DNA of 62,569 nt from an uncultured Bacillota bacterium (GCA_937973635.1 CALJJZ010000024.1:1-62569), one strand, 5' to 3'. Positions 50,933-56,787 are shown, counted from the first letter of the stretch. Translations and numbers: made by a program. The notes: generated from the letters alone by a model not told the origin.

Positions 50933-53900
50933 CTATTCCACGTTTCCCTCCATCTGCAGCACCAGGTTGCGCAGCTTATCCAATTTCTCCGGATCAGCCT
51001 GCCAGTAGCCGCGTCTCTCCGTTTCCATCAGCAGCTCCCCAATTTTTACAGCAGCATAAGGGTTATTATCCTGCAGGCGGCGCCGCATCTCTTCATCAAA
51101 GATCAGGCGTTCCCCCACTTCTTCGAAAACCCAGCTTTCTACCTGCCCCGTAGTTGCAGCAAAGCCCAGCAGGTACTCCACCCGGTCTTTAATTTTTTTA
51201 GCCCCATGGAAGTCATGTTTTAACATGCCCTCCAACCATACCGGATTAAACAGACGGGTACGGGAGGCCCGCTCAATAGAGGCTTTTAAAGCTTCCACCT
51301 CGACCTCCTCTTCCGTGGTGTCAATAATCATGATGTCAGTTTCCCTCCCCGTCTGACGATGCAAGCTGCGGGAAAGGCCTCCCATAAATTCGTAGTAATG
51401 ATCCAGATCGGTAACTTCATACTCGATATTGTCCCGCTCCTGGGCAATGGCTTCCACTGTCTGCAGCACTGCGTAGAATGCTTCTTTTGTCTGTTCCGTT
51501 TTTCTCGGTAAATACGCATAGGCCATGCTCCGGTCAAAGCTCTCCGCAAGCTCCTCCTCTTTTTCCCAAACACCGCTTTCTACTAAAGTGGTTAGAGATG
51601 TGGCGTACTCCTCAGGAGCCGGTCCAAAAATACGCGCCTGGGCCAGCAGGCCCAAACGGGGCTCCAACTGCAGGCGGTGCTTACGTATATAATTTTCATC
51701 TTCCTTTTCCGGCAGAGCTGCCACCAGCTCTATGGCCCGATAGAGCAAATCCAGGTGGGTAGCAAAAGTATCCCGGAAAATGCCGCAGATAGTAACCATG
51801 ACATCAATGCGCGGCCTGCCCAGTTCTGCCAACGGGATTACTTCCAGCTCCTTGAACCAGGTGCTCTTCTTCAGCAGGCGTACCCCCAATAACTCCAAAA
51901 TAACAGCAATGGTATCGCCTCCCGTTTTCATTGTCTCAAAACCCCAGAGCACCAAAGCCACAGTTTCGGGGTAACGCCCGTTTTTTGCCTGCAGTGCAGC
52001 AAGCAGCCTGGCTACCGCTTCTTTCCCCCGGTTCTGGGCTGCAACAGTAGGAATAAGACGGGGGTCGAAAGCATACATAGCCCGGCCTGCAGGATAAACG
52101 TCGGGATCCCGGACCGGATCCCCGCCGCGGGAGGGCAAGATATAGCGCCCTTCCAGAGCGCGGAGCAGGTTTTCCCCCTCACAGGAGCCCTGCAGACGCC
52201 GAAGGAGATCCCTGACATAGACCTCGTATCCCTGCGGCAACCAGGCAGGGAACTGCCCCCGTGCCAGGTCCAGAGCCAGTTCCCGGGCAGTGGTCTCAAT
52301 GCTGTCTCCCCGTGCTGTCCCTTTGACTTCTTCCCATTCAAGCCCCTCTTCCCGGGCCACAATTTTCAGGATCGAGGGAAACTCCCGGTCATGGCGCAGA
52401 GCTCCAAAAAGAAAATTGGCCATTTCCTGCTCTTCCCATTGACGATCCATGGTATATAAACCATCGGGGATAAGGTGCCGTTTCATACGGTAGAGTTCCC
52501 GGCGCAAAGCTGCGGGCCCACCGTCAAGGTGTAATTCCTGCGCCAGTTCCTGCAGCTGTGCCAGAACGGCATCGTCTCCTTCCCTTTCCCATTGCTCCAG
52601 CAGGTCTTCGAGGACGAGGTAGCTTTCATACAGTCCGGAATCTTTCACCGGAGGAGACCCATGCGAGATACAAAGGGCATAAGCACGCCTTTTGGCAATA
52701 GTGGATTCAGCCGCGTTGCCGATCCAGTAATAATAAAGGTGAGGCATAGTGCCAATAAGTAGATCAGGAAAACACTCCCCGGAGAGGGCTATTTCTTTAC
52801 CCCGATTAAATTCCAGGGTGCCATGCATACCAAAATGGATCACGGCATCGGCATTAAACACCTTTTGCAGGTACAAATAAAAAGCAAGATACTGGTGGCT
52901 GGGGGGCAGATCCCTGTCATGGTAAGCCTGCTCCGGATTCTCATGAACACCCCGGGAGGGCTGAACGCCCAGCAGAACATTGCCCGCCAGGTAACCGGGA
53001 AGCACCAGCTCCCCTTCCTCCACCATAATCTCCCCGGGAGGTTCGCCAAAGCGGGCAATGATCCGTTCCCGTACAGGCCGGGGCAGCTGTTCAAACCATT
53101 CACGGTAAAGGCCGAGGGGAAGGCGCAGAGCAGCCTTTTTCCCGTACTGAGGCGAATTTACAAGGCCATGTTGCAGGAAAAAATCATGCAAGGGGACAGC
53201 GGGCATATTCACAATGTAGCCCCTTTGCGCCAATTTACCCAAGAATATTTCCATACTGGCAAATACATCCAGATAGCCGGCAGAAGCGAGGTTGCTTTCC
53301 CCAGGCGGATAGTCATAGGTCAGGATAGCTATTTTTTTCTCCCCGTTGTTCTTTTTCCTCAGGTTAAGCCATGCCAAAGCCCTCTGCGCCAGTTTAATAA
53401 CCCGCTCCTCCAGGACTGCCTGCCTTTTTATCTTCCCGATTCGGGTATCGGCAAAAGACTCCATGGCAGAAACAAAAACTGGCTCTATAGCACCGTCAAG
53501 TTCGGGCAGGGTAACCCCCAGGATGACCTCCAGGGGGCTGAGCCCGCGGCTCTCTGCTTCCCACTTCGTTATTTCAGTTTCAAAAGCCCGCAGGCATGTT
53601 AACACCGGCACATCCATTTTTTGCAATAATCGGTAAGTCGGCTCCGGATCTCCTCCATACGGTCCCCCGTGCAGACGGAAATACTGCAGGTTAAGCAGCA
53701 GATCTACCCCTGCCATGTATTTCTCCAAGGCAACGAGATTACATTCCACCCGGGAAAAAACGCAGATCAAGTTTACATTGTCCCGCAAATGCTCGTAAAG
53801 GGCATCTACTACCGGTGCCGTATCATAAAAGTGCATACCGCCGTACATAAAAATCCCCAGGGAGGGAAGGCCCGGCAGGTGGCCTGCTTCCCGGCAATAT

Positions 53901-54553
53901 GCCTCCAGATCATCCATCAGGCCCGAGCCGGGGAGGTAAAGGCCGAAATCGGGCTGGCGCTGCGGTGGTCGGGGGGGCTTAAGCTCAGGCTGTCCTCCGT
54001 ATTCTCTGAGCAGAAGCTGCAGCATATTTTTTAAGTTGTGGGCATCTCCTTCTGCATAATATTCCTGGGCCAGGATCCAGTTTCGCATATCGCTCAACAT
54101 GCCAAAAGGAAGAAGCGAACCCAGCTTCTTGGCAAGGGCGGAAAATTTCTTGGTACGAAGATAGGCATTAACATCAAATTCTTTCTCTTTTCCTCTGCCG
54201 GGGCGGAACAGCTTTTCTCCCCTGAACTTTCCCATACGGGTAAGGGCAAACAATTCCTTGTTGCCGCCGATTAAAACCACCACAGTCTGTTCCCCCCCCC
54301 GTAACAGACCCGCCATCTCCCGGGCGACACGCACATCACCCCGTACATCCACAAGAACGATCTCCGCACCGGCCACCTCCGCCTGCAGAGAGGCCAAAGG
54401 AATACGGGGATCCTCCCAGTCCAGGAAGTAAATCTTTTTTAGCTCCAAAATCTCCCCGTATTCGTTCTTGAGATCATCCACCGCTTCCTTAAGCGCCAGA
54501 GTATTATCCATATTGGTTAGAGCGACTATCCGGGTAGTTTTTCGCCGGTTCAT
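50933..54553 (-). CDS. BchH/CobN-type metal chelatase large subunit
   Basis: A 1206-residue member of the CobN/BchH/ChlH family, which binds a tetrapyrrole and a divalent metal and inserts the metal with help from an AAA-type partner. The central signature HFGMHGTLEFNRGKE (H573, H577) and IAKRRAYALCISHGSPP are present, and closer in wording to ChlH than to CobN. The C-terminal SYxhYhG-like region is represented by VTDLDHYYEFMGGLSRSLH. The gene lies 34 nt downstream of a fused BchI/BchD-type gene, so the two subunits are co-expressed. No chlorophyll gene or corrin-ring gene is in the window, so the metal (Mg, Co, Ni) and ring are open. Cobaltochelatase activity is the commonest assumption for non-phototrophs. 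Confidence 0.88.
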   Translation of the reverse strand: MNRRKTTRIVALTNMDNTLALKEAVDDLKNEYGEILELKKIYFLDWEDPRIPLASLQAEVAGAEIVLVDVRGDVRVAREMAGLLRGGEQTVVVLIGGNKELFALTRMGKFRGEKLFRPGRGKEKEFDVNAYLRTKKFSALAKKLGSLLPFGMLSDMRNWILAQEYYAEGDAHNLKNMLQLLLREYGGQPELKPPRPPQRQPDFGLYLPGSGLMDDLEAYCREAGHLPGLPSLGIFMYGGMHFYDTAPVVDALYEHLRDNVNLICVFSRVECNLVALEKYMAGVDLLLNLQYFRLHGGPYGGDPEPTYRLLQKMDVPVLTCLRAFETEITKWEAESRGLSPLEVILGVTLPELDGAIEPVFVSAMESFADTRIGKIKRQAVLEERVIKLAQRALAWLNLRKKNNGEKKIAILTYDYPPGESNLASAGYLDVFASMEIFLGKLAQRGYIVNMPAVPLHDFFLQHGLVNSPQYGKKAALRLPLGLYREWFEQLPRPVRERIIARFGEPPGEIMVEEGELVLPGYLAGNVLLGVQPSRGVHENPEQAYHDRDLPPSHQYLAFYLYLQKVFNADAVIHFGMHGTLEFNRGKEIALSGECFPDLLIGTMPHLYYYWIGNAAESTIAKRRAYALCISHGSPPVKDSGLYESYLVLEDLLEQWEREGDDAVLAQLQELAQELHLDGGPAALRRELYRMKRHLIPDGLYTMDRQWEEQEMANFLFGALRHDREFPSILKIVAREEGLEWEEVKGTARGDSIETTARELALDLARGQFPAWLPQGYEVYVRDLLRRLQGSCEGENLLRALEGRYILPSRGGDPVRDPDVYPAGRAMYAFDPRLIPTVAAQNRGKEAVARLLAALQAKNGRYPETVALVLWGFETMKTGGDTIAVILELLGVRLLKKSTWFKELEVIPLAELGRPRIDVMVTICGIFRDTFATHLDLLYRAIELVAALPEKEDENYIRKHRLQLEPRLGLLAQARIFGPAPEEYATSLTTLVESGVWEKEEELAESFDRSMAYAYLPRKTEQTKEAFYAVLQTVEAIAQERDNIEYEVTDLDHYYEFMGGLSRSLHRQTGRETDIMIIDTTEEEVEVEALKASIERASRTRLFNPVWLEGMLKHDFHGAKKIKDRVEYLLGFAATTGQVESWVFEEVGERLIFDEEMRRRLQDNNPYAAVKIGELLMETERRGYWQADPEKLDKLRNLVLQMEGNVE

Positions 54554-54587
54554 ACCTGCTACACATTCCTTTCTCGTTAAGCTATCT

Positions 54588-56432
54588 CTAGATGTTCATA
54601 ATTTCTTCCAGGTAAAAATGGGGCGCGTCAAGAAGCTGGGCCATCTTTTCCAGCACTCCCAGGCTTCTTTTGCGGTTTTCCGTGTTTACCAATACAAAAT
54701 TAAGTTCCGGGATCATGCTGGACCGCAGCCTCTCCAGGTCTTCCTCCAGGCTTGTCCCTGCAAAAACATTGGCTTTTCCATCGGAGATCACAATGATCAC
54801 CGGACGGGCCTCCCGCTCGTGCATGGCGATCTCCAGGGCACGGAAAATGGCGGGGGTAAGGGGAGTCTTCCCTCCGGTAGGTAGAGCCTGCAGAGCTTCG
54901 TCTATTTTTAGCACATCTCCCGTTGGCTGGACAAGCACCTTCGTTTCCTCACCGCGAAAAGCCAGCAGGCCGATCCTGTTTTTTTTCTGGTAAGAATGCT
55001 GCAGGAGCTGCCATGAGAGGGTTTTGGCCAGTTTTATTTTCCGCTCCATGCGCATGGAAGACGAGGCATCCATAAGGATAAGGTAAAGGGCTTTACCCCG
55101 AGTAACCTTTACCTTCTCCATCAAGTGCTCGGGTAAAACTTCCAGTTTTCCGGTCTGGCTGACAGCCCGCCGCAGCGTAGCATCCACGGCCAAGCTCTCC
55201 GCTTCGCTGTTCGGACGAGCTTTAATAAACTGCCCCCTTTTCCCTTCGGTCCGAAAGTTATCCCGCCCCCGCCCCTTTACCGCCTCGTTAAAACGTACAA
55301 GCTCGCCGGACAGGACGCCTTCTTTTTCCAGGGGTTGGATTTCTTCACTGCCCGCTACCTCCCTCTTTTCCTCTTCTTTTTCCTCCTGTGAATCTGTTTC
55401 AGGAGGGTGTAACACCTGCTCAATCCGGTCCCTGGTCAGGCGCTCTCCTCTCTGCAAAGGGTCCTGGCGCATACGATGGGGCAGGGCCAGAAATGCCGCT
55501 TCCTGGATATCTTCTTCTTTGACCTCCATACGCCCCTCCAGGGCGGCAAGCACACGGCATGTTTTTTCCATGACAATATCGGCGCGGTGGGTTTTGATCC
55601 CCAAAGAAGTGGTTAGCTGCACAATCTTCAGCAGCATCTCCCGGGAAACCAAGGTCTGAGGAAGAATCTCCCGGGCATGGAAAACCGCTGCCTTAAGCTT
55701 GTCCTGCAGAGGGTAAAATTTCTGTTCAAAGGCAAAGGGGTCCTGGTCGAACATGCGTCGGTTTTCCAGCACCTGCAGGCGTTCTTCCGCTAACATAAGG
55801 GCCCCTATCTCCACCGATAAGCCAAAACGATCCATAATCTGCGGTCGCAAGTCCCCCTCTTCCGGGTTCATTGTTCCGATCAGGATAAACCTTGCCGGGT
55901 GATAGAGGGATATGCCCTCCCGCTCCACCACGTTTACGCCCATAGCCGCCGCATCCAGCAATATATTTACCAGGTAGTCGTCCAGCAGATTTACCTCATC
56001 AATATAGAGGACATTGCGATTGGCCCGGGCCAGCAAACCCGGTTCCAGCGCTTTGCTTCCTTCTTTAAGGGCTTTTTTAATATTTATGGACCCTATCACC
56101 ATATCTTCGGTAGCAGAAAGGGGCATATCCACAATTTCCATTTTTTTCTCCAGCCAGGGGAGCTCTCCTTTTTGTGCCAGCTGCTCCTGACAGACCTTGC
56201 ACATGAGCTTCTTATTTTCCGGGTGGCAGTTAAAGGGACATCCTTTCACCACCCTGATTTCTCCCAGCAGATCCGCCAGGGCCCTTACCGCTGTAGATTT
56301 TCCCGTTCCCTTATCACCTCTGATTAACACCCCGCCCACTGACGGATCCACAGCATTAACCAGCAGTGCTTTTTTCATCAGCTCCTGGCCGACGATAGCA
56401 GCAAAGGGGTAGATAACAAATTTATGGTGCAT
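54588..56432 (-). CDS. Fused chelatase AAA/VWA subunit (ChlID-like)
   Basis: Motor subunit for the chelatase above, 614 residues. Domains in order: an AAA+ ATPase (about 1-340) with Walker [10 protein letters not shown] at 39-47, a cysteine-rich insert (CPFNCHP and CKVC) that may bind zinc, and Walker [12 protein letters not shown]; an acidic linker ([20 protein letters not shown], about 350-370); and a C-terminal VWA domain with MIDAS D455-x-S457-x-S459 and [10 protein letters not shown]. It thus fuses the roles of BchI and BchD. GAGGAG precedes the ATG. It leads the two-gene operon with the large subunit. Confidence 0.92.
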
Positions 56433-56787
56433 GGTTGCTCCTCTCTTACGCTTATTTTCTTACAGATTGTTCGACAGGGGAATAGCTATCGCCCGGTGTT
56501 ACATTTTATACTTTTGTATTATCCTTGTTTTTTTTCGCCAAATCAGGGATATCTCCTGCCGGCATCAAAATTTTGCGGACCCTTCATAATTTAAAACTGT
56601 CAATCAATTGAGCATGGGGATGCTTATTTTTATACGGCGGACAGGAGCTGATCGACAGATATTTTAAAGACAAATAAGGCCATCTAGATAGATGGGGCCG
56701 ATAAAAAACAAAAGGCCGGCACATCACACTGCCGGTCTCTTTTGTCTTATCTTTTTCTTTAGACTGTTCCATGCGTACCTTTATTAA
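56433..56787. other. Intergenic region between the liv operon and the chelatase operon
   Basis: A 355-nt gap. It holds the liv-operon terminator at its right side. The left part is AT-rich (a TTTTTTTT-type run near 56530) and presumably carries the chelatase promoter; no clear -35/-10 pair was found. A 62-codon frame on the minus strand (56584-56772) overlaps the terminator and is not credible. Confidence 0.6.
56703..56736 (-). terminator. Rho-independent terminator of the liv operon
   Basis: On the minus strand GACCGGCA and TGCCGGCC form a stem around an 8-nt loop, followed by TTTTGTTTTTT. It lies about 50 nt past the livM stop and closes the transporter operon. Confidence 0.9.

Follow-up and report, generated by a model that had tools for sequence, protein, structure and literature searches.

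Which ring, and which metal, does a class I chelatase handle when no chlorophyll or cobalamin gene stands beside it? This question is raised by a gene pair in a 62,569-nucleotide stretch of DNA (CALJJZ010000024.1, hereafter the window), which is contig C24 of a 2.56-Mb MAG (GCA_937973635.1, 96% complete) from an uncultured Bacillota bacterium; among named relatives, Dethiobacter MAGs come closest (78 and 88% identity). The original prediction described a full large subunit and a fused BchI/BchD subunit in a compact pair at positions 50933-56432, and considered the ring and metal to be uncertain and perhaps unusual. Both open reading frames lie exactly at these positions, separated by 34 bp; the large subunit is complete and includes the two motifs originally recognized, and the fused motor subunit has intact Walker A, Walker B and MIDAS elements (Table 1). 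Uncertainty over the ring and metal was also justified, and the operator, the regulon and the neighbours of relatives now point to nickel. We consider it probable that the pair forms a nickel-scarcity-induced, two-gene class I ATP-dependent chelatase dedicated to nickel, and that this enzyme more likely releases than inserts the metal.

Table 1. Features of the chelatase pair, its upstream region and related loci. Positions are those of the window unless a contig or locus is named.
Feature	Location	Strand	Remarks
Class I chelatase large subunit (CobN/BchH/ChlH/HmuS superfamily)	50933..54553	-	1206 aa, soluble
HFGMHGT motif, large subunit	residues 573-579		
AKRRAY motif, large subunit	residues 620-625		
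His577 codon (H in HFGMHGT)	52823..52825	-	conserved active-site His, after Met576; aligned column
Fused AAA+ (BchI-like) and VWA (BchD-like) motor subunit	54588..56432	-	614 aa; TIGR02442, Pfam AAA lid and VWA
Walker A GDKGTGKS, motor subunit	56295..56318	-	residues 39-46, intact
Walker B LYIDE, motor subunit	residues 142-146		intact
MIDAS DASSS, VWA domain of motor subunit	55056..55070	-	residues 455-459, intact
NikR-like operator ATAATAC-N13-GTAACAC	56496..56522	-	direct repeat, 64 bp before motor gene
Terminator-like stem 3' of Liv-type ABC operon	56716..56735	-	between Liv-type operon and chelatase pair
Second terminator-like stem	56680..56695	-	same gap, upstream of motor gene
NikR gene of the genome	C50:6970-7395		HxH...C nickel ligands kept (HLHLDHHNC)
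C39 chelatase operon (Nik-type importer, BchH-like, BchI, BchD)	L003:2153-14793 (G000 contig C39)		
Split chlD genes beside NikR	L030:8212-9995; L046:6498-8284		linker A10 run, continuation in -1 frame

The large subunit has the hallmarks of the class I superfamily, namely the fold, the conserved active-site histidine and an AAA/VWA motor partner. PF02514 covers the length of the protein (1006 bits). An AF2 model spanning residues 131-1206 (mean pLDDT 84.6) superposes on CobN (7c6o, Z 41.4), ChlH (4zhj, Z 40.3) and HmuS (9p4s, Z 33.5), a comparison that cannot separate the functional readings. Judged from this model, the fold is certain and the substrate is not. Histidine is present at the active-site column in every alignment row that fills the column, and His577 appears to correspond to HmuS His-538 and CobN His-522, judging from a published account of these enzymes (PMC12583661). 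Methionine directly precedes this histidine in 14 of the 16 rows from the clade described below, whereas threonine does so in all 77 of the other rows scored. This methionine was considered as a nickel signature and rejected, since two purple-bacterial BchH references share it.

The best curated profile is the BchH model TIGR02025, whose cut-off is narrowly passed (837 versus 829 bits). Together with the methionine shared with purple-bacterial BchH, this match would favour a magnesium chelatase that is either a relic of (bacterio)chlorophyll synthesis or was acquired for it. However, the model is non-specific here because a paralogue encoded on contig C39 also passes its cut-off, and the term 'BchH-like' used originally is appropriate as the name of a barely passed HMM but not beyond that. 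The magnesium chelatases ChlIDH and BchIDH have the fold and the motor logic in common with the window enzyme, but they employ two separate motor genes, serve the chlorophyll pathway and belong to a different clade. Searches of the window uncovered no bch or chl gene beside the large subunit, and neither chlorophyll nor cobalamin genes between 44 and 62.6 kb, in agreement with the isolation first claimed for the pair. Given also the predicted nickel regulon, a magnesium chelatase is barely credible.

A second possible precedent is HmuS, the heme de-chelatase of Bacteroidota (PMC12583661), which has the class I large-subunit fold, is found with importers as are many relatives of the window enzyme, and releases a scarce metal from a tetrapyrrole, a direction that is only proposed for the window enzyme. 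These likenesses would suit an enzyme that takes iron from heme. In contrast to the window enzyme, however, HmuS is membrane-bound, carries a Met-rich insertion, is tied to iron and heme, and uses NADH rather than an AAA/VWA motor (PMC12583661). A scan of the window large subunit revealed neither a transmembrane-like stretch nor a Met-rich insertion, a motor gene is present, and the predicted regulation is by nickel and not iron. No hmu genes were found among the families searched for, which is the scope of every genome-wide absence given here. A heme de-chelatase is therefore very unlikely.

The motor subunit scores 655 bits against TIGR02442 (cut-off 779). Because the AAA+ ring and the VWA/MIDAS domain are both located on this polypeptide, a single fused protein would do the work of BchI and BchD. 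The fs-chlD genes (PMC9227772) likewise encode a fused AAA and VWA subunit, but use a slippery site to yield small and medium subunits, whereas the window gene is one open frame. Two members of the clade (L030 and L046) have this frameshift form, with a conserved A10 slippery run. A programmed frameshift in the window gene itself was rejected, as its linker has no poly-A slippery heptamer and the frame remains open throughout.

The two genes are probably transcribed as a separate unit, because two terminator-like stems lie between them and the Liv-type ABC operon upstream. The Liv-type transporter was also considered as a partner and rejected, given these intervening stems and its absence at the orthologous locus of a related genome (G004, L025). 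No standard sigma-70 promoter was found near the operator.

Might the pair instead serve vitamin B12 synthesis? Anaerobes that make B12 were originally said normally to rely on a small chelatase, CbiK or CbiX, and this genome conforms, as contig C17 carries a full early-insertion cluster. In one region, Pfam or search matches identify CbiM, CbiQ, CbiX and an ABC ATPase close to CbiA, CbiD, CbiG and CbiJ, and the remaining cbi and hem genes on C17 were identified by reading open reading frames. From this gene content, B12 is made by the early-insertion route with CbiX. The late cobalt insertion that would accompany a true CobN is not what this region encodes, with CbiD, CbiX, CbiG and CbiJ of the early route found together. 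CobNST cobaltochelatase and its CobN plus ChlID variants share the fold and the AAA and VWA partners, but act in late-insertion B12 synthesis and belong to a different clade. All CobN profiles score below their cut-offs with the window large subunit, the best being TIGR02257 (612 versus 822 bits).

A case for cobalt can be made from other operons. The paralogue on C39 belongs to a second class I chelatase operon, ordered SBP-NikB-ATPase-ATPase-NikC-H-I-D and followed by an ABC-2 pair, which is directly preceded by a cobalamin riboswitch (118.5 bits) and is conserved in G004 (L017). Cobalamin riboswitches also precede FecBCD-H(-I-D) operons of several Bacillota (L091, L093, L099, L101 and L103), and in Dehalobacter, starvation for corrinoids strongly induces operon-2, which includes CobN (PMC4285132). 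Like the window pair, such FepBCD/BtuFCD, CobN and ChlI/D operons combine an orphan chelatase and an importer in anaerobes with early-insertion B12 synthesis (PMC4285132). By analogy, the window enzyme could insert cobalt or salvage corrinoids, and CbiMNQO transporters beside two clade members (L027 and L032) could carry cobalt. However, the Dehalobacter, C39 and other riboswitch-linked operons are under B12 control, have separate I and D genes and fall in a different clade. No Rfam family, riboswitches included, matches anywhere in the window, where a NikR-type operator is present instead, and CbiX with a full early route is already available to the cell. Thus, a cobaltochelatase is distinctly unlikely, and by its control elements the genome keeps a B12-controlled chelatase copy apart from the window copy.

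Two other features of these genomes were observed. Both large-subunit genes of G004 (L016:8591-12210 and L017:8022 onward) have apparent frame breaks, which may be assembly errors or decay. In addition, the genes of a FecBCD-type importer alternate with nitrogenase-like H, D and K genes in two Dethiobacter genomes (L154:7590-13793 on G000 contig C41, and L155:2452-6862). The product may be an import-linked tetrapyrrole reductase or some other enzyme of the nitrogenase-like kind.

The evidence for nickel begins with the operator. Its GTAACAC half-site and its spacing match the delta-proteobacterial NikR consensus, GTGTTAC-N13/14-GTAACAC (PMC545781), but it departs from the canonical form in being a direct rather than an inverted repeat and in its first half-site, ATAATAC, which is one base off. 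Half-sites in other orientations have already been noted for NikR in D. psychrophila (PMC545781). Matches to the operator do not occur in 100 dinucleotide shuffles of the window, and when the 160-bp upstream region is shuffled 400 times, no shuffle scores as high. When the genome was scanned with RTAAYAC-N13/14-RTAAYAC, four sites were found versus none with the reversed pattern as control. Besides the window site, these precede a methyltransferase-SBP (NikA-like)-FmdE-NikBC-ATPase operon (C47), a FecB/FecD/FecE importer operon (C35) and an fmdE gene (C86). The operator is also conserved at the orthologous locus L025 of G004.

Extending the scan to 60 relatives gives 26 direct-repeat sites versus 5 control sites for the combined set, and about 20 of the 26 precede the same kinds of gene, mostly those for binding proteins resembling NikA or FecB, for NikBC permeases, for FmdE, for the methyltransferase of the C47 operon and for a CooC-like ATPase, the last assigned by eye; most genes at these sites were named by reading open reading frames, with profile checks on a subset. 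The canonical inverted form yields 12 sites versus 3 controls in the same genomes, preceding genes for NikA-like SBPs, fmdE and methyltransferases and, in G005, a chelatase operon ordered D-I-FecBCD-ABC2-H. Both orientations thus occur before the same kinds of gene, which is our main reason for inferring that the window site is a NikR operator. The genome encodes a NikR that keeps its nickel ligands, and a NikR is present in 12 of the 14 clade genomes. NikR presence alone is weak evidence, however, because the protein is common in the relatives (53 of 60).

Two further observations concern these sites. FmdE-family genes recur directly behind NikR-like operators (L115:3413-4033, L116:4746-5471, L201, L202, L124 and L126), which suggests a nickel-related role for FmdE. 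Moreover, NikR-like operators lie upstream of H genes from a different clade in Freyarchaeota and Jordarchaeum (L036 at 9995 and L039 at 5395), and because of these sites, nickel control of chelatases may have arisen more than once.

Further evidence comes from the relatives of the large subunit and their gene neighbourhoods. In a tree of 67 large subunits that includes CobN references from cob clusters and two BchH references from bch clusters, the latter on a long branch, the window protein falls in a 15-member clade (SH-aLRT 100) apart from both reference sets and outside the cobalamin-riboswitch-linked group. Thus, we did not find the outcome that the original prediction had named as its refutation, a place within CobN combined with a pathway of late insertion. 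The clade spans Bacillota, Actinomycetota, Elusimicrobiota, Myxococcota/delta-proteobacterial MAGs, Methanobacteriota and Helarchaeota, and at every intact locus the partner of the large subunit is a fused motor some 600 aa long. A NikR gene adjoins the chelatase in three members (L030, L040 and L046; 190-196 bits, cut-off 105), of which L040 also has a TonB receptor and ExbBD/TonB-like genes. Other members adjoin CbiM clusters (L027 and L032), FecBCD (L026) or an ECF and Nik operon (L024), and a Methanobacteriaceae member has a D-ECF(S,T,A)-H operon.

Among 11 clade members with upstream sequence, five have clear operator-like sites (P<=0.0025), one has a weak site and five have none, the site-less group including all three whose chelatase adjoins a NikR gene. 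In L034, L037 and L029, which represent archaea and another bacterial phylum, an operator-like pair is found upstream of D. No clear NikR-like match was found before the Methanobacteriaceae D genes.

Additional CobN-like genes were noted in clade genomes and their kin. A second, very divergent example (L024:19682-22069) is convergent to the Nik/FmdE operon beside the window orthologue. In Methanobacteriaceae, some CobN-domain proteins have signal-peptide-like N termini (L191:5341-9054, L192:4910-8806 and L193:3276-7406) and may be extracellular or surface chelatase-like proteins, and the open frames that contain other CobN matches there reach 2123 aa.

How might such an enzyme operate? We propose that, with nickel in good supply, NikR would bind the direct-repeat operator and keep the operon repressed. 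On nickel scarcity, repression would be lifted and the operon expressed alongside Nik-type and FecBCD-type importers. The fused subunit would provide both the AAA+ ring and the VWA/MIDAS coupling domain, and would drive a large subunit holding a tetrapyrrole in its cleft, with His577 likely serving as axial ligand while ATP powers metal exchange. The enzyme would strip nickel from a Ni-tetrapyrrole that has been scavenged or recycled, much as HmuS takes iron from heme. Within a nickel assignment that is itself read from sequence, release is modestly preferred over insertion for two reasons: importers are under the same predicted switch, and HmuS offers the nearest known mechanism among such enzymes found beside importers. 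We know of no Ni-tetrapyrrole in this bacterium, which counts against the involvement of nickel.

The same regulon could instead control a high-affinity enzyme that inserts nickel into a ring, forming a nickel cofactor when the metal is scarce. Every characterised motor-coupled class I enzyme (ChlIDH, CobNST) inserts its metal, and some clade genomes are archaeal and carry genes from the nitrogenase-like CfbD/BchNB superfamily. Furthermore, methanogen CobN homologues have been proposed to serve F430, and MTBMA_c10550-10570 and c09440 have been proposed as nickel chelatases (PMC3087415). However, consumers of scarce nickel are usually off, not on, under its limitation. No Ni-tetrapyrrole is known from the bacteria that make up most of the clade, and PF00148 has no match in four clade genomes, three of them bacterial. 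Moreover, the chelatase of F430 synthesis is CfbA, a small class II enzyme. We regard insertion as the leading alternative, though a doubtful one.

Nickel release might also be one step of a larger scavenging shuttle, which as a whole we regard as unlikely. Ni-tetrapyrroles from F430 debris, geoporphyrins or the cell's own excreted ring would be imported by FecBCD, ECF or Nik importers and stripped of nickel, and the ABC-2 exporter that recurs beside relatives would return the empty ring. To our knowledge, no nickel de-chelatase has been described so far, nor any motor-driven class I enzyme that acts in the metal-releasing direction, and such a system would contain the first of both.

Anaerobes and methanogens commonly carry CobN homologues that have no pathway around them, and according to a 2025 study of HmuS, most superfamily members from bacteria and archaea defy reliable annotation (PMC12583661). 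Among the papers accessible to our literature search, none names a NikR-linked CobN or magnesium chelatase system. One clade that crosses domains now gains a specific and testable assignment, nickel under NikR, and the orphan chelatases of anaerobes appear to be split into at least two control classes, marked by the B12 riboswitch and the NikR operator, both of which are present in this genome. The Methanobacteriaceae clade member is likely the same protein as CobN1 of Methanothermobacter marburgensis, for which the published report gives no mechanism (PMC12350162), and the nickel assignment offers an explanation for CobN1 induction in nickel-starved methanogens. If the direction of the reaction is indeed release, these chelatases would represent a new way for cells to obtain nickel.
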